Source of the DNA: Rhodospirillaceae bacterium
Lineage (GTDB): Bacteria > Pseudomonadota > Alphaproteobacteria > Rhodospirillales > JABHCV01
Reading direction: 5' to 3'
Assembly (NCBI GenBank): GCA_018671895.1
Contig: JABHGV010000034.1
Span: forward strand, 1 to 60,230
DNA length: 60,230 nucleotides
Every line of letters begins with the position of its first letter. The first letter of the stretch is position 1. The notes beneath the pieces are model-generated. The model ran no database searches. It was not told the DNA's origin and was given only the letters and a program-made list of their open reading frames with translations. Both the position numbers and the translations under genes were made by a program. This document shows, in pieces, positions 4,187 through 43,743 of this stretch.

Positions 4187-5238
4187 GCCCCGCAAAATCC
4201 TCGATTGTCGAAGACGAAGACGGCCCGTTGCCGGCGCGCGCCAATCCTGATTTACAAGGCCATGACGCGGCTGAGAAGTCCCTGTTGGATGCATTCAATA
4301 GCGGCAAGCTCGCCCACGCATGGCTGCTGACCGGGCCTAAGGGTATCGGCAAGGCGACACTGGCCTATCGGTTTGCCCGCCATGTTCTCAGCACAGGAGA
4401 TGGGGAAGGGGGCTTGTTTGGTGATGCCGCCCCGGTTGATTCAATGTACGTCTCGCCCGACGATCCGGTTTTCTTGCGTATATCTGCCGGGGGTCACGCC
4501 GACCTGAAAGTCATCGAGCGTGCTTACGACGAAAAAAGGGGCAAGTGGCGCACGGAAATCGTCGTCGACGATGTTCGCTCACTCGGCCGTTTCCTGTCGC
4601 TGACATCTGCCGAAGGCGGCTGGCGGGTGGTAGTTATCGACAGTGCCGACGAAATGAACCGCAATGCCGCCAATGCCGTTCTTAAAGTTCTGGAAGAACC
4701 GCCGAAAAGGGCATTGTTGCTACTGGTCAGCCACAATCCGGGCCGTCTGTTGCCGACCATTCGGTCGCGCTGCCGCAAGCTGACGTTAAAGCCGTTGGCT
4801 GAGAGCGCCGTTGTCAAATTGTTGCTGGGTGAAAACCCTGAAATGCCGATGTCTGATGCAGAAGAACTGGCGCGACTATCAGATGGCAGTATCGGGCGCG
4901 CACTGAATTTGGAACAAGTCGGCGGATTGGCGCTTTATCACGAGATGACGGCTATTCTCGAACGACTGCCTGTACTGGATATCGGGGCCGTTCATGCATT
5001 GGCCGGAAAACTTGGCAAGGCCGGGGCGGATGATGCTTTTCATACATTTACCGAATTGTTGACCAGCTGGATCAGCAAGCATATTCGCGATCTGTCGACA
5101 AGGGCTGCTAATGGCGATCTTGAAAGCTGGCTTCAGGTGTGGGACAAGGTCAACCACCTGCTGGAAAGAACCGACGCCGTCAACCTGGACCGCAGGCAAA
5201 CACTGATCACCATCTTTACCATTCTGGAAACTGCTTAA
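4183..5238 (+). CDS. holB: DNA polymerase III delta-prime subunit
   Basis: A 351-residue component of the DNA polymerase III clamp loader. It has an AAA+ fold with Walker A GPKGIGKA near residue 50, the DEMNRNAANAVLKVLEEPP segment typical of delta-prime near residue 155, and the sensor region SHNPGRLLPTIRSRC, in which SRC matches the clamp-loader arginine-finger motif. The usual zinc-binding cysteine set of delta-prime is not evident, which is common in alphaproteobacteria. It overlaps tmk by 4 bases and ends directly against the metG start codon, so tmk-holB-metG form one transcription unit. Confidence 0.93.
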   Translation: MSPAKSSIVEDEDGPLPARANPDLQGHDAAEKSLLDAFNSGKLAHAWLLTGPKGIGKATLAYRFARHVLSTGDGEGGLFGDAAPVDSMYVSPDDPVFLRISAGGHADLKVIERAYDEKRGKWRTEIVVDDVRSLGRFLSLTSAEGGWRVVVIDSADEMNRNAANAVLKVLEEPPKRALLLLVSHNPGRLLPTIRSRCRKLTLKPLAESAVVKLLLGENPEMPMSDAEELARLSDGSIGRALNLEQVGGLALYHEMTAILERLPVLDIGAVHALAGKLGKAGADDAFHTFTELLTSWISKHIRDLSTRAANGDLESWLQVWDKVNHLLERTDAVNLDRRQTLITIFTILETA

Positions 5239-6792
5239 GTGCCCAAAACACCTTATTACCTGACGACGCCGATTTATTACGTCAACGACGCGCCCCATAT
5301 TGGCCATGCATATACGTCGCTGGCCTGTGATGTGCTGGCGCGTTTCAAGCGGCTGGATGGTTTCGATGTTAAGTTCCTGACCGGCACAGATGAACATGGT
5401 CAAAAGGTCGAAAAATCGGCTCAGGCAAAGGGCATCGATGCCCAGGCCTTTACCGACGAAGTGTCGCAAAAGTTCCGTGATCTGGCCGATCACATGAATT
5501 TCAGTCACGACGACTTCATCCGCACCACCGAAGAACGTCACAAGCTGTCTTGCACTGACCTGTGGAAGCGGATCGTTGATCGTGGAGACATCTATCTGGA
5601 CAGTTACGGCGGCTGGTATGCAATCCGCGACGAAGCCTTTTATGGGGAAGGCGAGCTTATCGACGGTCCCGACGGTAAAAAGGTTGCCCCCAGTGGTGCC
5701 GAGGTCGAATGGGTCGAAGAGCCGAGTTATTTCTTCAAATTGTCGGAGTGGGGCGATCGCCTGCTCGAATTCTATGAGAAAAACCCGGACTTCATCGCGC
5801 CGAAAAGCCGCCTGAATGAGGTTGTCAGCTTCGTGAAGGGCGGATTGCACGATTTGTCTGTATCGAGAACCACTTTCAACTGGGGCATTCCGGTGCCCGA
5901 CGATGACGAGCACATCATGTACGTGTGGCTCGATGCGTTGACCAACTACATCACCGCCCTTGGATTCCCGGAAACCGAAACCGGCGAATTCGCCACCTAT
6001 TGGCCCGCCGACTTGCACATGGTCGGCAAGGACATCCTGCGTTTTCACACAGTCTATTGGCCGGCGTTCCTGATGGCCGCCGGTATCGAACCGCCAAAAA
6101 GGGTATTTGCTCACGGCTGGTGGACCAACGAAGGCGAGAAGATTTCAAAGTCGCTGGGCAACGTTATCGACCCGATCGACCTTGTCGAAACCTACGGGCT
6201 TGATCAGGTCCGGTATTTCCTGCTGCGCGAAGTGCCATTTGGCAACGACGGTGATTTTTCCCGCCACGCCATGGTCAACCGCATGAATGGTGAGTTGGCA
6301 AACGACCTGGGCAATCTGGCCCAGCGGGTGCTTTCCATGGTCGCCAAAAACTGCGCCGCCGCTGTCCCCGTGCACGGTGAATTTACGGATGACGACAAGG
6401 CAATGCTGGATCAGGCGTCCGTGCTGGTCAATGGCTTGCGTAAATCCATGGATGAACAGGCTTTCCACGAAGGGCTGGAAACGGTGTGGAAGGCCATCCG
6501 CGCCGCCAATGGCTATGTCGATGCCCAGGCGCCGTGGACCCTTAAAAAGGAAGACCCGCCGCGCATGGCGACCGTACTTTACGTATTGTCGGAAACCATC
6601 CGCCAGATTGCCATTGTATTACAGCCGTTCATGCCCGACAGCATGGCGAACATGCTCGACCAGTTGGCCGTCAGTCCGGAACATCGGGATTTCTCGTTTC
6701 TGGGCCAGGGTCATCAACTGACTCCCGGAACAATTCTGCCAGCCCCCCAAGGGGTGTTTCCGCGCTTCGTCGAGGCGGATGCAGACGATTGA
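5239..6792 (+). CDS. metG: Methionyl-tRNA synthetase
   Basis: Charges tRNA-Met with methionine. The class I signatures are both present: HIGH as PHIGHAY near residue 15 and KMSKS as EKISKSLGN near residue 298. The 517-residue length and the lack of cysteines in the connective knuckle fit the short MetG form without zinc; no C-terminal dimerisation domain is present. The start is GTG immediately after the holB stop codon. In many relatives metG is followed directly by tatD; here a cytochrome c gene lies between them. Confidence 0.96.
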   Translation: MPKTPYYLTTPIYYVNDAPHIGHAYTSLACDVLARFKRLDGFDVKFLTGTDEHGQKVEKSAQAKGIDAQAFTDEVSQKFRDLADHMNFSHDDFIRTTEERHKLSCTDLWKRIVDRGDIYLDSYGGWYAIRDEAFYGEGELIDGPDGKKVAPSGAEVEWVEEPSYFFKLSEWGDRLLEFYEKNPDFIAPKSRLNEVVSFVKGGLHDLSVSRTTFNWGIPVPDDDEHIMYVWLDALTNYITALGFPETETGEFATYWPADLHMVGKDILRFHTVYWPAFLMAAGIEPPKRVFAHGWWTNEGEKISKSLGNVIDPIDLVETYGLDQVRYFLLREVPFGNDGDFSRHAMVNRMNGELANDLGNLAQRVLSMVAKNCAAAVPVHGEFTDDDKAMLDQASVLVNGLRKSMDEQAFHEGLETVWKAIRAANGYVDAQAPWTLKKEDPPRMATVLYVLSETIRQIAIVLQPFMPDSMANMLDQLAVSPEHRDFSFLGQGHQLTPGTILPAPQGVFPRFVEADADD

Positions 6793-34084: not shown

Positions 34085-37000
34085 TCAGGAAACGATATCT
34101 ATATCCGACGTGATGTTTGACGTTACGACCGTTGAATCTATTGTCGCGATATAGGTCAGTTCATTCGCACTGACGTTATTCAATGTTGTGCCGTTTTCCT
34201 CGAACAGAAAAACACCGCCGCCATACCCGGAACCTGCATTCGTGGTGCTGTAAGCAATAAGTCCATCGGACTCAGCATCCGTAGAAATACCAATTCCGTT
34301 GATAAAGTTTGCAATGATCGTGGGAACGCCGCTTTGCGCCATCAGGCCTGCGAAATTTGACACGCCGTCGGTTATGAACAGGGCCTCGTGCGTGTCGTTT
34401 GTGAAATCGGCTATGCCGTTCGTTGCCGCCCAGGTTATGGTTCCGTCCGCCGCCCCGCCGCTGTCATCAATGATGGCAGCAAGGCTGCCAGCGATGCCAA
34501 TGCTGTCCTGGCCCTCTGTGTATCCATAAATCATGTCGCGGCCCGTAAGACTGTCCGTCACAGTCGCACCATCAAATTTCGTTGCATATCGAAGAGTCTG
34601 CCCGGCAGATGTTCCGGCCAGATAAAAATTATCGCCGCTCGTACCACCGGTTATTGTCGCAGATGTTGTCCCGTTAATTGTGATGCTGTCACTGTCGGCT
34701 CCGCCGGTAATCGTTTCGGTATTGGAAACCGTTACAGAATTGGGACCGTCGGTCAGTTTCAGGGTATCCGTCCCGTCACCCAAATCGACACTATCGCCTG
34801 ACAGCGCCGTCGTCGTCGTAACAGTATCGTTGCCCGTACCACCGGTAATGGTTTCCGTGTTCGATACGGCAATAAAATTGGTGGCGTCGGCAAGGGTCAG
34901 GCTGTCGGTGCCACCGCCAAGGTCTACATGCGTTGACGTGGCTTTATCTGACAGCGTAACGTCTTCGTTGGCCACAGTACCGGTCAGGGTTGTTGTGCCA
35001 GTAGCGTTGCCATCAGCGTCGAAACGCTGGGCATAGACCCCTGACAGATTTCCGTCCTGAAGATCTGATTGCCATGTTGTAATGAAGCCGCCGTCTTCAG
35101 TGACGGTTACATCGGGCCATGTTTGATCATTGGCCAGATATGAGTTGATCCTGAATTCGGTACCGACCTTGCCCCCGGTACTGTCGAAGATTTGCGCCGT
35201 GTTATCGAAATCGTTCCCGTTGACGCCATCGTGCCAGGTCGCAATAAAACCACCATTTTCCAGTGCCGCCATGCGTGGCGCTCCCTGCTCGCCGTAGGTC
35301 GCTGTACTAAGCTGGAACTCAACACCAACAAAGGCACCGGCTTCTGTCATGATTTGCCCATAGACACCGCCCTGATTTCCATCCTGACTAACAGATTGCC
35401 AAGCGACGACAATGTTGTCGTTCGATAGCTGAATAACGTTTGGAAAGTGCTGACTGCTGGTTACATAGGTATTAACCTGGAATTCTCCGCCGATCTTGCT
35501 TGCCGTGCTGTTATAAATCTGGCCAATGATTTCGGCCGTCCCGTTGCCGCCCGTTTGTCCGTCACTGGTCCAGAAAGAAGCGAAGCCACCATTGTCCAAA
35601 GCAACCAGGGTTGGTTGGTATTGGGTGCTTGCAGTGGTCGTGCTGATATGGAATTCACTGCCAATTTTTTCCCCGGCGACATTCATGCGCTGACCATAAA
35701 TGCCATAAGTTGCGGCTGCGTCCTGTCCCAGAGACTGCCATGCATAGACCAGGTCGCCGCTGGTCAGCTGAATGATCGTCACATGTGCCTGTTCGCTGGC
35801 AGTGTAGGTGTTGAGTACAATTTCGTCGGTCACTGCCGTACCGTTTGCATCAAAAAAACGGGTCATAGCAGCCCAGCCGCCATCGGATACATCTTGTTGA
35901 TAGGAATGCCAGCCAACGGCGAAACCACCGTCGGCCAGTGCGATTGTATTATCGCTATTGTAGTATGTATTACTCTGGATGCCGGTTGTTTCGGAGTTGA
36001 TCTGGAATTCCAATCCCAACGGATTGCCTGCGCTATCGTAGAGTTTGCCTAATATTCCAGAGGAATCAGCATCTACGCCTCTGTAAGTGATCAAGAACCC
36101 ACCGTCTGCAAGGGACAGTGCCTGCGGAAATTCCTGCTCGCCGTTGGTCACCGTATTGACCAGAAACTCTCCGTCTCCGCGCGACAGGGTCAGGGTGGTG
36201 TCGTCGAATTCCAGCTTCTCAACATTTACTAAGGTATCAACACCGTCATCGCCGCTGGTTGCGGGCGCCGTGTCGATGACGGTTGCGCCACCGACAACCG
36301 GGTCAAGCGCCAGGCTATAGCCCGCAAGATTTCCTGCGAACACGACCGTATCCGTTCCGGCACCCCCATCAATGATGTCGTTATCGGACGTCGACACAAG
36401 CACATCGTCAGCTGAAGTGCCAATAATGGAATTTACACCAGTTTCTGGTGGTTCTGTCTTTGGTGGTGTCGGGGGTGGCTCATCATCATCGTCATCTTTC
36501 GGGTCGGAACGCTTGTTTGGATCGGTGCTGAAATCGTAGGGGTTGCCCTCTGTTTCTGGATCATTAAAACCGCCATCATCGGGGCCGCCAAACAAATCAT
36601 CACCGGGTCCACCGAACAAACCGTCATCACCGTCACCGTCGCTGCCGAAGAACGTGTTGCCGTCTTCGCCGACTCCGAACAGCCCGCCGCCGTCATCGGG
36701 GCCACCATCAGGGCTGCCATCTGGCCCAGCATCAGGACCGCCGTCCGGGCCACCATCCGGTGGGCCGCCCTGCTCACCCTCTCCGGGTGCCGGACCGCCG
36801 TCCGGACCACCAAAAGAACCAAAAGCTTGTGTCTGGGCGGCAAGATCATTGGCTGCTGCCTGCGCTTGTTGTTGTGCCGCCTGGGCTTCGGCTTGCGCCG
36901 TTTCGGCTACGGCTTGTGCCGCTTCGGCTTCGGCGGCTTGTGCTTGTGCTTCGACTGCGGCAGCCTCGGCCTCGGCTGCTGCTGCCTCAGCCGCCGCTGC

Positions 37001-38176
37001 GGCTTCTTCGGCAGCGGCGATGGCTTCCGGCGTTCCTTCGGCTTCGGCTGCTGCTGCTGCTGCTTCGGCTGCAGCGGCGGCGGCTTCTGCCTCGGCGGCT
37101 GCGGCGGCGGCTTCTGCCTCGGCTGCTTCGGCCTCGGCTGTTGCCGCTTCGGCCTCGGCTTCCGCCTCGTCGGCTTTTTCGGCGTCTTCCGCGGCTTTTT
37201 CCGTCGCCCGGCTGGACGCTGCTGTGGACAGGGTGGTCAGGGTCGCACCGAAATTCTCTTGAATTTGTTGCTCGTTAAACACCACCGGTGGCGGCGGTGC
37301 CTGAAGAGAACTGGTCATCTGCACCGTCGCGCCGACCTGACTGAGGGTTACCGTGCCGCCCTGATTGGTGACTGCCAACTGGCCGACGAAGGAATTGCCA
37401 AAGGCATCGATTTCCGGCAGCAGCGAAATGGTGTTTTCGGCGCCTTCCTGCGCCGCGCGTCCGGCGACCTTGGTGCCGCGAATACCGATGGTGGCGACCG
37501 GTGTCGTCACGGTCATGGAATCGGGTCCGGTCTTGGCGATCTGGCCGCTGACGAACGAAAACACGCCCTGTACCAGATTGGCGTTAAACGCTCCTTCCTG
37601 GGTGCCCGGATCATAAACCATCTCGTCGATGACCATGCGGCCGTCTTCGCCCAGCGAGAAGGTTGTTTCATCGACGAAGGTAATGCCGATGGCGGCGCCC
37701 TTGCCGGTCTCAATCGTGTCGCCTTCGAAAATGCTGTCGCCCTTGCTCAAGGTTACACGGGTGCCGTCGGTGTGGATTGCTTCGACCAGCCCGTCGGTGG
37801 CCTCGACCTTGCCGATGGGCTCGTTGCCGGTTTCCGTCTGGGCGATCTGAACGGGGCCACCCATATTTTGTGCAACAACGCCCGGCGCAATCGGACCGGC
37901 GAGCTTTTGCGCCAGTTCAGCTGAAATCACCGCGCCTTGGTCGGTCATCAGATCGGGCGGGTTTTCCAGGGTGTAAAAGTCGCGGATCAGAATTTGCGTG
38001 CCGTCTGCACCGGTCAGCAACAGGTCGGGGCCTTGGGGCGAGAAATCGGCTTTCAGCAGCCATGCATCGCCAGGCACCACAAGCGCCGCACCATCGACGG
38101 CCTGAAGGACCAGAACGGAGCTTTGCTCGTTGCCTTGCGGGCCTTCAAACGACTGGCGAAACGCTGCCTGCTCCAA
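34085..38176 (-). CDS. Large FecR/RTX-like exported protein with seven propeller-type repeats
   Basis: A 1363-residue, acidic, low-Cys protein. Order: N-terminal region without signal peptide; FecR-type domain (about 120-290, with TTPVATIGIRGTK); Ala/Glu-rich helical tract (325-455); Gly/Pro/Asp-rich linker (455-580); one RTX-like stretch (IIDGGAGTDT near 601); seven repeats of about 55 residues (671-1060), each with a core like FQVNTY...GGF..W.S...G.YGQ.; then two copies of a VSNTETITGG unit (1104-1158) and a Gly/Asn/Thr-rich C-terminus. The lack of a signal peptide and the acidic, hydrophobic tail suggest type I secretion, as in LapA-like adhesins. Start TTG with AGGGGAA ahead. A surface adhesin or secreted binder is likely; no type I exporter is adjacent. 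Confidence 0.85.
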   Translation of the reverse strand: MEQAAFRQSFEGPQGNEQSSVLVLQAVDGAALVVPGDAWLLKADFSPQGPDLLLTGADGTQILIRDFYTLENPPDLMTDQGAVISAELAQKLAGPIAPGVVAQNMGGPVQIAQTETGNEPIGKVEATDGLVEAIHTDGTRVTLSKGDSIFEGDTIETGKGAAIGITFVDETTFSLGEDGRMVIDEMVYDPGTQEGAFNANLVQGVFSFVSGQIAKTGPDSMTVTTPVATIGIRGTKVAGRAAQEGAENTISLLPEIDAFGNSFVGQLAVTNQGGTVTLSQVGATVQMTSSLQAPPPPVVFNEQQIQENFGATLTTLSTAASSRATEKAAEDAEKADEAEAEAEAATAEAEAAEAEAAAAAAEAEAAAAAAEAAAAAAEAEGTPEAIAAAEEAAAAAEAAAAEAEAAAVEAQAQAAEAEAAQAVAETAQAEAQAAQQQAQAAANDLAAQTQAFGSFGGPDGGPAPGEGEQGGPPDGGPDGGPDAGPDGSPDGGPDDGGGLFGVGEDGNTFFGSDGDGDDGLFGGPGDDLFGGPDDGGFNDPETEGNPYDFSTDPNKRSDPKDDDDDEPPPTPPKTEPPETGVNSIIGTSADDVLVSTSDNDIIDGGAGTDTVVFAGNLAGYSLALDPVVGGATVIDTAPATSGDDGVDTLVNVEKLEFDDTTLTLSRGDGEFLVNTVTNGEQEFPQALSLADGGFLITYRGVDADSSGILGKLYDSAGNPLGLEFQINSETTGIQSNTYYNSDNTIALADGGFAVGWHSYQQDVSDGGWAAMTRFFDANGTAVTDEIVLNTYTASEQAHVTIIQLTSGDLVYAWQSLGQDAAATYGIYGQRMNVAGEKIGSEFHISTTTASTQYQPTLVALDNGGFASFWTSDGQTGGNGTAEIIGQIYNSTASKIGGEFQVNTYVTSSQHFPNVIQLSNDNIVVAWQSVSQDGNQGGVYGQIMTEAGAFVGVEFQLSTATYGEQGAPRMAALENGGFIATWHDGVNGNDFDNTAQIFDSTGGKVGTEFRINSYLANDQTWPDVTVTEDGGFITTWQSDLQDGNLSGVYAQRFDADGNATGTTTLTGTVANEDVTLSDKATSTHVDLGGGTDSLTLADATNFIAVSNTETITGGTGNDTVTTTTALSGDSVDLGDGTDTLKLTDGPNSVTVSNTETITGGADSDSITINGTTSATITGGTSGDNFYLAGTSAGQTLRYATKFDGATVTDSLTGRDMIYGYTEGQDSIGIAGSLAAIIDDSGGAADGTITWAATNGIADFTNDTHEALFITDGVSNFAGLMAQSGVPTIIANFINGIGISTDAESDGLIAYSTTNAGSGYGGGVFLFEENGTTLNNVSANELTYIATIDSTVVTSNITSDIDIVS

Positions 38177-38514
38177 ATTAATTCCCCTGATTTAACATAA
38201 AAAGAACCCTAATCATTTTTCAGATTCCCACAGACCTCTAAACAATTGGTAACCAAAGGTAGCTGTGAATCAATTCTGCAGCAAGCAAGCCCTTTGAAGG
38301 CCTTAGCGACTCAATATTTAATTTGAACGATTAAAAAGGGGGAAGAGACTACGGATTTTTCTATAGGATAAAACAATGCAAATCGAGATATCTATAGTTA
38401 ATGCCTATAGTACGATAGAGAAATATTCTTAGTATCGCATATGGTCTTATGCCTACTGTTGATCAGGCAGTTCATAAATTTTGTATAAATTTTTATGTGT
38501 GAGGAGGCTAGATC
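38177..38514. other. AT-rich intergenic region between divergent units
   Basis: A 338-base gap between the large FecR/RTX gene (minus) and the thiocyanate-hydrolase-like operon (plus). It is AT-rich and must hold promoters for both. It contains three copies of the palindrome CTATAG (38361, 38392 and 38405). No coding potential with a ribosome site was seen. Confidence 0.6.
38459..38489 (+). promoter_or_regulatory. Possible sigma-70 promoter of the scnB operon
   Basis: TTGATC (38459-38464) and an extended -10 TGTATAAAT (TATAAA at 38484-38489) are separated by 19 bases, slightly long. The site lies 25 bases upstream of the scnB-like start codon, leaving a short leader. Confidence 0.3.
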
Positions 38515-38907
38515 GTGACGTCACATGACACACCGAAGCAGCCACTGGATGTGCCAGCACCGGATACATTTAATCACGACCGATTCAAGAAATCGATGCG
38601 TATCGTCCACGACCTGGGTGGCCAGGATGGCGGGCCGATTACGCAGGAGGAAAGAACCTCGGAACAGTGGGAGGTCAACACATTTGCGATCTGCGAGTGT
38701 CTTTCCTGGCGCGGTGTCTGGACCAACGTGGAGAAACTTCGCCGAGCCACCGACCTGGGGGAAAAGTACCTCGCGGTGCCTTACTCCGGACGCTGGCTGC
38801 TCGCCGCTACGCGGGCGCTAGTTGACAGACAGCACATCACACTGACCGAGTTGACTGAAAAGACCGAAGAGGTGAAAAAACGCTATGAGCAAAAGTCGCC
38901 ACGCTGA
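38515..38907 (+). CDS. scnB: Thiocyanate hydrolase beta subunit-like protein (N-terminal half of nitrile hydratase beta)
   Basis: A 130-residue protein matching the beta subunit of thiocyanate hydrolase. Shared features known from that family: HDLGG (32-36), the block WEVNTFAICECLSWRGVWT (about 60-78) and VPYSGRWLLAATRALVD (about 97-113). In the enzyme (SCN- + 2 H2O to COS + NH3) beta and alpha together equal one nitrile hydratase beta chain and hold the metal-bearing gamma chain. Start is GTG with a perfect AGGAGG. It overlaps scnA by 23 bases. The catalytic gamma gene (scnC) is not in the operon. Homology is strong; activity is open. Confidence 0.85.
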   Translation: MTSHDTPKQPLDVPAPDTFNHDRFKKSMRIVHDLGGQDGGPITQEERTSEQWEVNTFAICECLSWRGVWTNVEKLRRATDLGEKYLAVPYSGRWLLAATRALVDRQHITLTELTEKTEEVKKRYEQKSPR

Positions 38908-39307
38908 GTTAGACGACGCAGGTTTGGGCAAGGCGGCCGGTTCGCCGATGTTCAATCATCCGCGGATTGCCGAAATCGCCAAGGGCGTGGGTGATCCGCA
39001 GTGCTACCAGGGTATGGCTGGCACACCCAGATTCAAGGAGGGGGACCACCTACGAGTCAAGGACAGCCCCGACCTCTTTTATAACCAGACCCCTGGATAC
39101 CTGCGTGGGGTCGCTGGAACCGTTATGGAGCTGGTCTACGAAAGTCCCGCTCCTGAGGACGAAGCCTGGGGACATATCGACAAGGTCGAGTGGTTCTACG
39201 CCTTGTGTTTTCGCCATGAAGACATCTGGGATGATGATTCGTCCGACGGGAATCCTGATGACACGATACATGCCCAGGTTTCCGAACGTTGGCTGGAACC
39301 TGTGTAG
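38885..39307 (+). CDS. scnA: Thiocyanate hydrolase alpha subunit-like protein (C-terminal half of nitrile hydratase beta)
   Basis: A 140-residue protein matching the alpha subunit of thiocyanate hydrolase: GVGDPQCYQGMAG (about 36-48), RFKEGDHLRVKDSPDLFY (about 51-68), the SH3-like GYLRGVAGTV and LVYESPAPEDEA (about 73-97), and VEWFYALCFRHEDIW. These are the nitrile hydratase beta C-terminal SH3-type motifs. It has no metal-binding CxxCSC motif, as expected for this subunit. Order beta-then-alpha agrees with the known scn operon. Translationally coupled to scnB. Confidence 0.85.
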   Translation: MSKSRHAELDDAGLGKAAGSPMFNHPRIAEIAKGVGDPQCYQGMAGTPRFKEGDHLRVKDSPDLFYNQTPGYLRGVAGTVMELVYESPAPEDEAWGHIDKVEWFYALCFRHEDIWDDDSSDGNPDDTIHAQVSERWLEPV

Positions 39308-39346
39308 GGTCCGGTTGTTCAGCGCGCTAGAGAAGCTAAGGACGGA

Positions 39347-39376
39347 ATGGACAGGCAAACGGCAGAACCACGGTAA
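39347..39376 (+). other. Nine-codon open frame with ribosome site in the scnA-DGC spacer
   Basis: An AAGGA site stands 4 bases before an ATG that opens nine codons (MDRQTAEPR) and stops. It lies where the gamma-subunit gene might be expected to begin. It may be a deletion remnant, a tiny leader peptide or chance. Confidence 0.25.
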
Positions 39377-39406
39377 TCGAAATTGTTATTACGGGAGTGT
39401 CATATA

Positions 39407-39883
39407 ATGGCGCGACAAATCGCAGATATCCCCTTGGTCTTCAGCTGCTCGGGTTGTTCCAGCGCTGCCCAAACGACCAACACGCTGGCCTTGCTCCTGG
39501 ATCGGGACGGTGAAGCACAAATGTCCTGCATCGCCGGCGTGGGCGGCGATATACCCAAATTTGTACGTGAGGTCACCTCTGGTCGGCCGATCCTTGGACT
39601 GGATGGCTGTCCGTTGACCTGTGTCCACAACACCCTAAAACGACATGGTGTCGAGCCTGATCGCTACGTGCAATTGCAGAGCCACGGGATAAAAAAGCGT
39701 TACGGACAGGACGCCGAAGCCGAAGACGTGGAGCGGCTCTATCCTAAGATCGTTGAACTGGCCCGGGAGCTTCGCTCGGATACGCTCTCGCCGCAAGGTG
39801 ACGACCCAGAGGCTGTCCATGATAATCAATTGAGAAATTCTTCCTTGGAGGATCAAAAGCTATCCGTCAGGGGAATCCGATGA
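39407..39883 (+). CDS. DGC-family putative zinc-binding protein
   Basis: A 158-residue cysteine-rich protein of the DGC (putative zinc-binding) family. Signature cysteines: CSGCSSAAQ (about 12-20), SCIAGVGGD (about 41-49) and LDGCPLTCV (about 67-75). The last 50 residues are polar and acidic. The family's function is not established; clustered cysteines suggest metal or persulfide binding. The ATG at 39407 follows GGGAG; a farther TTG was rejected. It overlaps the ThDP enzyme gene by 4 bases, so it is coupled to it and may act on the same substrate. Confidence 0.82.
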   Translation: MARQIADIPLVFSCSGCSSAAQTTNTLALLLDRDGEAQMSCIAGVGGDIPKFVREVTSGRPILGLDGCPLTCVHNTLKRHGVEPDRYVQLQSHGIKKRYGQDAEAEDVERLYPKIVELARELRSDTLSPQGDDPEAVHDNQLRNSSLEDQKLSVRGIR

Positions 39884-41643
39884 AATCCGCTACAGCAGAA
39901 CAGCAGGATGTTGTTTCCGTCGAAGGAGAGCTCGGCGACCATCCGCGTAGGATGAAGGGCCAGGAATTCCTGGCGGAGTTACTGCGCCAATCGGGTACGA
40001 AGGCGATATTCTTCGTGCCGACATTCCTTTACCCGACGCTCGTAGAGTTGGCGGAAGATTCCATCAAGCGCGTGCTGTGCCACTCGGAGAAGGCGGCGGC
40101 CTATATGGCCGACGGTTACGCGCAGGCGTCGGGCAAACCGGCAGTCGTGACCACACAGGGCGGTCCCGGTGCGACGAACCTGTACGCCGGCCTGGTTGAT
40201 GCATGGCAGAGCAACACGCCGGTGCTGGCAGTGACGCCGGCTCTTCCCAGTTCGCGCTACCATGGCAATTCCTATCAGGAGGCTTATGTAGACTTCCGGC
40301 CGGTGACCAAGTACGACGCCGAGGTACGGTCGATCGACAGGATGGCGGAGTTCTTCGGCAAGGCCTACCGAGAGATGACCACAGGGGCACCGCGGCCGGT
40401 GCATTTGTATCTCGATGGTGCGTTGGAATCTGCGGAGGCGGAGTTCGACTTCCGGTACTTGGATAAGCGTTACTTTTCCTATCCCGCATTCCGTCCACGA
40501 GCCGATGACGAACTGGTGGAGCAGGCTGTTCGGGAGCTTCACCAAGCTCAGAGCCCGGTGATAGTCTGCGGTCGCGGTACAGTCGTTTCAGGCGCCTGGG
40601 AAGAGATCACGGCACTGGCCGAGCGGCTGGACGTGCCGGTCACCACGACCTTGGGCGGAAAAGGCAGTATCGACGAGCGGCATTCCCTGGCGCTGGGCGT
40701 GACGGGGGCCTACCGGCGACCGACGACCGACCATGTACTCGAAAAAGCCGATCTGGTGCTCAATGTAGGCGGCCATCAGGGCGGGGCGACGACGAACATG
40801 AAGAAGCTGCCAAAGCCAGGGGTACGCGTCATCCATATTGATATCAATCCGGCTCAACCCGGCGCGAACTATCCCAATGTCCTGCCGCTGGTAGGTGATG
40901 CGCGCACAGTGCTGCGACAGATGCTGGACGTCGCGCAATTGGAAGAACAAGGTACGCACAGCGCTTGGGTGGCCGAAGCCCATGACGGGTTGCGTGCGTG
41001 GCGCGAAAGCGAGCGCGTGCATATAGAGGGAAATGCGGTCCCGATCCGACCGGAACAGTTGATGAGTGACCTGGTGAAAGCGTGTCCGGAGAATACCCTT
41101 TACGTCACGGACACGGGCTACGCCGGGACCTGGGCCGGTGCCTTCATGGATCTTCCGGCGGGGAAAAACTTCCTGCACTGCGAGGGCAGTCTGGGCTGGG
41201 CGTTCCCGGCAGCCATGGGGGCCAAGACGGCGGTGCCCGAGCGGACGGTGGTAACAATTACGGGCGACGGTGGATTTTTCTACCACCTCACAGAGCTAGA
41301 GACCGCAGTGCGCAACGGAATCAATCTGGTTACGGTGGTCCTGAACAATCAGGCTATGGCGTTTCAGACACACCTGCTGCGTTCCCTCTGGGCGGGGTCT
41401 CGCGATCTGGACAAGCTATCGGAGTTCGGCATGACGAATTTCGCCGATGTTGCCCGGGGGATGGGTGCATGGGGCGTCCAGGTTACTAACCCCAAAGACA
41501 TCGCAGAAGCCGTGCGCCAAGCGATTGAACTGGACGTGCCGGCCGTAGTGGATGTGCTCATCGATCCGTCTGCTGTGGCGCCCGTGGCGGTCATGGCTGG
41601 TCAGGGAAGTCGCAGTAATGTGCGCCCTGCATCAGCCAAGTAG
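39880..41643 (+). CDS. Thiamine-diphosphate-dependent enzyme, acetolactate-synthase-like
   Basis: A 587-residue ThDP enzyme with the three-domain layout of acetolactate synthase and related decarboxylases/lyases. The cofactor-activating Glu is E70 in CHSEKAAAYMADGYA; GGPGATNLYAG follows near 94; the ThDP/Mg motif GDGGFF...NN is at about 465-490 (TITGDGGFF and VLNNQAM). Specific substrate residues of true acetolactate synthase cannot be confirmed, and no small regulatory subunit is near, so branched-chain amino-acid synthesis is unlikely. It might act on a C1-C3 product linked to the scnBA proteins. Last gene of the operon. Confidence 0.85.
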   Translation: MKSATAEQQDVVSVEGELGDHPRRMKGQEFLAELLRQSGTKAIFFVPTFLYPTLVELAEDSIKRVLCHSEKAAAYMADGYAQASGKPAVVTTQGGPGATNLYAGLVDAWQSNTPVLAVTPALPSSRYHGNSYQEAYVDFRPVTKYDAEVRSIDRMAEFFGKAYREMTTGAPRPVHLYLDGALESAEAEFDFRYLDKRYFSYPAFRPRADDELVEQAVRELHQAQSPVIVCGRGTVVSGAWEEITALAERLDVPVTTTLGGKGSIDERHSLALGVTGAYRRPTTDHVLEKADLVLNVGGHQGGATTNMKKLPKPGVRVIHIDINPAQPGANYPNVLPLVGDARTVLRQMLDVAQLEEQGTHSAWVAEAHDGLRAWRESERVHIEGNAVPIRPEQLMSDLVKACPENTLYVTDTGYAGTWAGAFMDLPAGKNFLHCEGSLGWAFPAAMGAKTAVPERTVVTITGDGGFFYHLTELETAVRNGINLVTVVLNNQAMAFQTHLLRSLWAGSRDLDKLSEFGMTNFADVARGMGAWGVQVTNPKDIAEAVRQAIELDVPAVVDVLIDPSAVAPVAVMAGQGSRSNVRPASAK

Positions 41644-41741: not shown

Positions 41742-41818
41742 TGGTCGGAGCGGCGGGATTCGAACCCACGACCCCTACACCCCCAGTGTAGTGCGCTACC
41801 AGACTGCGCTACGCTCCG
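41742..41818 (-). tRNA. tRNA-Pro (anticodon GGG)
   Basis: Minus-strand cloverleaf: acceptor stem CGGAGCG/CGCTCCG (41812-41818 with 41746-41752), anticodon stem CTACA/TGTAG around the loop CTGGGGG with anticodon GGG, T-loop GGTTCGAATCC, discriminator A and an encoded CCA end (41742-41744). It lies downstream of merR-ihfA, a conserved alphaproteobacterial position. Its 3' end faces the scnBA operon. Confidence 0.95.
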
Positions 41819-42780: not shown

Positions 42781-43743
42781 TTACATACGAACCAGAGCCG
42801 AGCCCCAGGTGAAGCCGCCGCCCATGGCTTCCATCAGAATCAGCTGTCCAGGTTTGATGCGGCCATCCTTGACGGCAACATCCAGAGCCAGAGGAATGGA
42901 GGCCGCAGATGTGTTGGCGTGGCGGTCAACGGTAATAACGACGCGGTCTTCGCCAAGTTTTAGTTTACGCGCCGTGCCCGACAGGATACGTAGATTCGCC
43001 TGATGCGGGACCAGCCAGTCGATATCGTCACGGCTCAAATTATTCGCCGCCAGCGCTTCATCAGCCACCGCCGCCAGATTGACAACGGCATGGCGGAAAA
43101 CCTCTTTTCCCGACATGCGTATGTTACCGACGGTGCCGGTCGTCGACGGGCCGCCATCAACGTATAGCAAATCGTTATAGCGCCCATCGGAATGCAGATG
43201 GGTCGACAGAATGACTGACGTATCATCGATGGCGCGATCCAAAAGAACCGCAGCACCGCCATCGCCGAACAACACGCAAGTTCCCCGGTCTTCCCAATCC
43301 AGAATGCGTGAGAAAATTTCAGCGCCAATCACCAGCACTTTTTCGGCCTGTCCGGTGCGAATGAAATTATCACCGACGGCGAGCGCATAGATAAATCCGG
43401 AACAGACCGCCTGAACATCGAAGGCCGCGCCCTTCTCCATTCCCAGCATGGCTTGCACTTTCGTCGCGGTCGACGGAAAGGTCTGGTCTGGCGTCGTCGT
43501 CGCCAGCACGATCATATCGATATCTGATACTTCAGCCCCGGCATGCTTCAGGGCATCAAGGGCGGCCTTGTAGGCAATATCGGAAGTATATTCTCCGTCC
43601 GCCGCAATATGACGCTGGCGGATGCCGGTACGCTCGACAATCCATTCATCGGTAGTATCGACAATGGTTGATAACTCCGCGTTGGTCATCACGCGTTCGG
43701 GCAACCAAGACCCGCAACCAACGATCCGTGAACGAATGCTCAT
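42781..43743 (-). CDS. fabH: 3-oxoacyl-ACP synthase III
   Basis: A 320-residue enzyme that starts fatty-acid synthesis from acetyl-CoA and malonyl-ACP. The Cys-His-Asn triad is seen in AVCSGFIYA (near 112), VPHQANLRI (near 243) and [11 protein letters not shown] (near 273). It overlaps plsX by 4 bases. plsX-fabH coupling links phospholipid and fatty-acid synthesis. Confidence 0.97.

Follow-up and report, generated by a model that had tools for sequence, protein, structure and literature searches.

Why should a bacterium keep two of the three subunits of thiocyanate hydrolase (SCNase) in an operon without the third? The question is raised by four tightly packed genes at positions 38515-41643 of contig JABHGV010000034.1 of a Rhodospirillaceae bacterium (assembly GCA_018671895.1), of which 60,230 nucleotides were analysed and are called here the window. 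The genes encode paralogues of the beta and alpha subunits, named scnB' and scnA', followed by a DGC-domain cysteine-rich protein and an enzyme dependent on thiamine diphosphate (ThDP). We found that the same four genes stand in the same order in three genomes, each of which also encodes a complete SCNase. The reading that we consider on the whole probable is that they belong to the thiocyanate regulon as an accessory operon, with a beta/alpha scaffold that does not work as an SCNase.

A second beta/alpha pair in a genome with a complete SCNase

All four genes lie on the forward strand. The first, scnB' (38515-38907; 130 amino acids (aa), GTG start), carries the domain NHase_beta_N (PF21006, E 3e-18), and its best match in the PDB is the SCNase beta subunit (2dd4_B, E 1.1e-33). 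The second, scnA' (38885-39307; 140 aa), carries NHase_beta_C (PF02211, E 1.1e-16) and matches the alpha chain 2dd4_A (E 2.7e-38), the two domains being on separate proteins as they are in ScnB and ScnA. No NCBIfam cut-off was reached by either product. The DGC protein (39407-39883; 158 aa) matches PF08859 with an E-value of 4.4e-31, and the ThDP-dependent enzyme, of the acetolactate-synthase-like superfamily (39880-41643; 587 aa), carries PF02776, PF00205 and PF02775. The domain and PDB searches bear out the initial annotation, which had described beta and alpha genes without gamma joined to a DGC and a ThDP protein. Regarding the spacing, scnB' and scnA' overlap by 23 bases and the DGC and ThDP genes by 4 bases, with 99 bases between scnA' and the ATG of the DGC gene. 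A TTG upstream (39383), the start of the listed open reading frame (ORF), is also possible, and the ATG at 39407 is the more likely start because two close homologues align from there.

A profile search of the whole genome (2.50 Mb, 98.5% complete) found no gamma gene, that is, no gene of the NHase_alpha family, in the window; its sole match in this genome is on another contig, C4. There it belongs to an operon in the order scnB, scnA, scnC, a gene of 140 aa in the position of the activator (P15K), which had no Pfam match, and an ATP-binding cassette (ABC) ATPase gene. The product of this scnC scores 470.6 bits against the gamma chain of Thiobacillus thioparus (2dd4_C) and 386.7 bits against TIGR03887, whose cut-off is 291.45, and its cobalt claw reads CTLCSC. 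Thus the suggestion that gamma might lie elsewhere was right as to its place, but the gamma on C4 is accompanied there by a beta, an alpha and an activator-like gene and cannot simply be counted as the third gene that the window operon lacks. Because the genome holds this complete SCNase operon, the window operon is a second, gamma-less beta/alpha pair and not a broken operon.

C4 also holds genes for a cyanase, a methyltransferase, parts of an NMT1-type ABC transporter, DsrE, an SQR-like flavoprotein, a LysR regulator, NicO and CbiM. It matches the scn cluster known from Tb. thioparus and Tv. thiocyanodenitrificans, for which the available text of PMC5328954 lists cyanase, methyltransferase, scn and P15K-like genes and an NMT1-type ABC transporter, together with DsrE, an SQR-like protein and cobalt uptake. 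However, no second beta/alpha pair, DGC gene or ThDP gene is mentioned in what that text says of the cluster. In the literature searched, from which most subscription papers were absent, we found no description of the four-gene operon and no paper combining 'thiocyanate hydrolase' with 'thiamine pyrophosphate'.

Conservation, descent and a common promoter element

The order scnB'-scnA'-DGC-ThDP is kept in the genome of the window (G000), in G006 and at L036, a locus in the metagenome-assembled genome Gammaproteobacteria bacterium FW104_bin.7. Across the three, identities are 75-83% for B', 76-82% for A', 76-82% for the DGC protein and 80-85% for the ThDP enzyme, whereas B' is only 47-58% and A' 51-61% identical to the ordinary subunits. 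A complete SCNase is encoded in all three genomes. Both in G006 and at L036 the module stands directly upstream of scnB, scnA, scnC, a P15K-like gene and the ABC gene; at L036 the module and the SCNase operon are separated by a LysR gene, and a cyanase gene lies upstream. In the two relatives scnC is thus a neighbour of the module, which agrees in part with what the initial annotation had named as a refutation, but it stands there in a complete operon of its own downstream. The four-gene order, which the initial annotation had left to be surveyed in other genomes, proved to be conserved.

The module is rare in the genomes sampled. Among six genomes of the window's family, A' or scnA at 50% identity or more was found in G000 only, and one other genome had a 27% match. 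Some match to A' was present in 80 of 297 genomes of the order, with A' itself in two (G000 and G006) and ordinary scnA in three (G000, G006 and G264); the remaining matches listed had at most 39% identity. One of the three genomes of the family of G006 has A'. With an E-value limit of 1e-20, G000 was alone among 385 genomes of the class and alone among 398 of the phylum, two samples that overlap, and A' was in none of the 289 genomes of a sample of the same class drawn round G950. A scan of genome contigs with A', restricted to close relatives, turned up a single locus (L036), and a plasmid collection gave two weak matches only. Just past the operon there is a tRNA-Pro (ggg) gene on the reverse strand (41742-41818), a possible landing site for inserted DNA.

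Two trivial explanations can be set aside. An assembly error that hides gamma is ruled out by the complete scn operon on C4 and by the same gamma-less order in two other assemblies, and a chance neighbourhood of four genes is ruled out by the conserved order.

Every gene was compared in every pair of the three genomes (12 comparisons). The ratio of non-synonymous to synonymous substitution rates was 0.09-0.21 (NG86) or 0.04-0.24 (YN00), calculated with a module that is marked experimental. All four genes are under purifying selection, and these ratios rule out a decaying duplicate. In an LG+G4 tree of the B and A chains joined end to end, built from 15 rows and 237 columns, the B'/A' pairs of the module form a clade with support 99, sister to the ordinary SCNases. 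The latter, including T. thioparus, are also a clade (support 99), and the nitrile hydratase (NHase) rows stand apart with support 100. On this tree, the duplication predates the split of the sampled SCNases.

The promoter regions link the two operons of G000. A candidate LysR-type operator, CTATAG-N7-CTATAG, lies at 38392-38410 (no strand assigned), 104 bases before scnB'. When one mismatch was allowed, only two places were found in the whole 2.5-Mb genome, both exact: this one and C4:10303-10321, before scnB. From the base composition, taken from the window and C4 only, around 0.11 exact places and 4.1 places with up to one mismatch would be expected, and the reversed control pattern has 6 places per strand. 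Allowing two mismatches adds one further place in the window, at 43162 (0.30 expected in all). The only exact place in G006 is C25:4626-4644, between the ThDP gene and scnB, with one one-mismatch place on C105. L036 has a site with one mismatch that overlaps the LysR start, and another with two mismatches between that gene and scnB; no place with up to one mismatch was found in G264. In G000, L036 and G264 the scn genes have linked LysR genes (50-68% identical), and the G006 stretch ends in a partial LysR gene. An element confined to two operons on different contigs of G000 is the best evidence that both may be under joint control. The scan for promoters and terminators gave results at chance level. 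On its other side the element is flanked by a divergent gene on the reverse strand (34085-38176) for a protein of 1363 aa with a FecR domain and a weak match to RTX repeats, so that it sits between this gene and the scnB' operon.

Claw arginines and the two partner proteins

According to the available text of the review PMC7193024, subunit swapping in NHase is driven by two conserved arginines of the beta chain, R52 and R157, which are bound to the two oxidised cysteines by salt bridges. Along 3qyh_B, R52 lies in the motif DEFR, and the second arginine is by motif R149 in HTR, which presumably is R157 of the review. We compared these residues in all the beta-N and beta-C profile matches of loci L005, L007-L036 and L039 together with the seed sequences, with duplicates removed; the set was drawn apart from the 91 places of the 297-genome order search. 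The HTR position is arginine in 33 of 36 distinct rows and glutamine in the other three, which are the three A' proteins of the module, and there is no gap nearby. At the R52 position 34 of 38 rows have arginine, all three B' proteins have leucine and one further row (L005_1824) has lysine. Judged from the alignments, the arginine is lost in alpha' and apparently also in beta', the latter being less secure because of the alignment register. It is therefore unlikely that an SCNase-like site is built with the B'/A' pair.

Compared with the SCNase of T. thioparus THI115 (PDB 2dd4), B' and A' are full-length relatives in the same beta-alpha order with overlapping genes, but the window operon has no gamma, belongs to a separate clade, has glutamine and leucine at the claw-arginine positions and is joined to the DGC and ThDP genes. 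Co-type NHases and their activators have the same beta-N and beta-C domains, and a likeness to beta-N also occurs among the activators of this family (22.5 bits for the P15K-like protein of G006, just above the PF21006 cut-off of 21.5). Nevertheless, B' differs from such an activator in being far nearer to SCNase beta and in being paired with A'. An unusual split of NHase was seen besides in three genomes of the same order, where ORFs of 321-327 aa fuse beta-N and alpha (with CTLCSC) and a separate beta-C gene follows (L022 485-1462 with 1459-1800; L025 1827-2810; L026 489-1454).

As regards the ThDP enzyme, the best PDB match is the acetolactate synthase 6lpi_A (E 2.6e-59); it has the three TPP_enzyme domains, and the Glu and the GDG...NN motif align to 6lpi. 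It shares these features with acetolactate-synthase-like enzymes in general, but it is at most about 40% identical to the relatives found outside the module. No cut-off was reached among the 25 NCBIfam models listed of 55, and with the equivalog of biosynthetic acetolactate synthase (TIGR00118) it scores 340.9 bits, below the cut-off of 538.35. The nearest relatives outside the module, at about 40% identity among the 297 order genomes and the plasmid collection, are in five order genomes, in neighbourhoods that look catabolic by ORF reading, and on Achromobacter plasmids. Neither these relatives nor their neighbourhoods indicated a substrate.

The DGC protein scores 107.5 bits against PF08859 (gathering cut-off 27) and has the invariant cysteines common to its relatives. 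It differs from other DGC-domain proteins in its scn neighbourhood and in an extra cysteine, the module having CSGC where the four other relatives examined (31-34% identity) have CSGA. An AlphaFold2 model (7 sequences) gives an alpha/beta fold with mean pLDDT 78.1, for which no PDB structure matched better than E 0.029; the sequence had no PDB match at E 1 and matched no NCBIfam model. Around 4700-5330 of loci L078-L081, DGC relatives adjoin ArsR-like regulators and permease-like genes by ORF reading, and not scn genes. This recurrent neighbourhood may bear on the role of the protein.

The beta-carbonic anhydrase family, to which COSase, acting on carbonyl sulfide (COS), belongs, has a member in G000, but searches of G006 and G264 found none. 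This distribution neither proves nor excludes a COS role for the module. The only gene of that family in G000 (L082, 1459-2184, on contig C62) adjoins ORFs that resemble subunits of a 2-oxoacid oxidoreductase.

What the operon may do

The initial annotation had also proposed that the scaffold was reused, and this gains support from the order kept in three genomes, the sister clade, the loss of one and apparently both claw arginines, and the purifying selection. In the accessory operon that we favour, beta' and alpha' would still pair with each other. The pair would no longer complete the Co(III)/oxidised-cysteine site with gamma, and it would thus have become a non-hydrolysing scaffold or docking pair, which may couple the DGC protein and the ThDP enzyme to SCNase or to its products (COS, ammonia, sulfide). 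The DGC protein probably handles metal or sulfur, and the ThDP enzyme probably acts on a 2-oxo acid or a COS-derived substrate. Judging from the partners, the action would be on the product side (COS, sulfide, a 2-oxo acid), and any one specific ThDP reaction is improbable. A bolder version, which we regard as a long shot, is a new complex in which the repurposed scaffold, with the DGC and ThDP proteins, takes over what the hydrolysis of thiocyanate releases. In such a complex a carbanion bound to ThDP might, for instance, capture COS as an activated analogue of CO2, and the sulfide might be passed to the DGC protein. If true, COS capture would link thiocyanate breakdown to carbon metabolism.

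Several points weigh against an accessory role in thiocyanate use. The module is known in three genomes only, and the five other genomes of the family have neither module nor SCNase at 50% identity. Furthermore, in G264 (assembly completeness 90%, contamination 7%) scnA is present and, judging from the ORFs, so is scnC, but the module is not; neither the ThDP gene (at E 1e-70) nor the DGC gene (at E 1e-8) was found there. Since G264 has SCNase without it, the module is dispensable for SCNase. The promoter motif was picked post hoc, from a 10-mer seen to be shared when the upstream regions were compared, and no formal probability is claimed for it. At L036 the module is preceded only by a three-mismatch site (3 sites found at this locus, 0.85 expected), and in G006 even a tolerance of 3 mismatches gives the module no site of its own. 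Finally, KLRRA in B' stands opposite RRRRQ in SCNase, and a register shift of one residue would restore an arginine.

The same facts can be read in other ways. B'A' might be a place-holder in maturation, which binds apo-ScnC and is swapped for the true ScnB and ScnA after the cysteines are oxidised, like the self-subunit swapping of NHase. There, in the available text of PMC7193024, the swapping depends on salt bridges that tie the two beta arginines to the oxidised cysteines and drive it, so that a pair without these anchors would release holo-gamma, and B'A' is always found with SCNase. We think this unlikely, however. In each of the three genomes scnC is already followed by a P15K-like activator gene, the pair is absent from G264 although SCNase is there, and the presence of the DGC and ThDP partners would go unexplained. 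These partners would be at the centre of the matter if the DGC and ThDP genes were a separate catabolic system that has no functional tie to thiocyanate and is only carried along with the scn genes, on mobile or clustered DNA. The ThDP relatives at about 40% identity are on contigs without NHase-beta-like genes or on Achromobacter plasmids, the distribution over the family is patchy, and a tRNA-Pro gene flanks the operon. Nevertheless, the promoter element, otherwise unique in G000, is common to both unlinked operons, and A' was never seen without SCNase in the samples searched; this explanation, likewise unlikely, ranks slightly below the place-holder in probability.

We give the lowest rank, by a narrow margin, to an SCNase isoform, in which B'A' would join ScnC in trans and make a second enzyme hydrolysing thiocyanate or nitriles. 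The identity in alignments (46-55% to ordinary ScnB and 51-54% to ScnA) would allow it, and the same genome offers one gamma. But the claw-contacting arginine of alpha, and apparently that of beta, is lost in all three pairs, and the tight linkage to the DGC and ThDP genes would again have no explanation.

SCNase is a model for an active site made by cobalt and oxidised cysteines. In the old paralogues described here, which represent two of the three subunits, at least one of the residues that grip the site has been replaced; they have new partners and are apparently under the same regulator. The B'A' pair thus lets one test in a natural system what purpose the beta/alpha scaffold serves, and the operon points to an undescribed accessory step in the bacterial use of thiocyanate, not seen in the scn clusters described.

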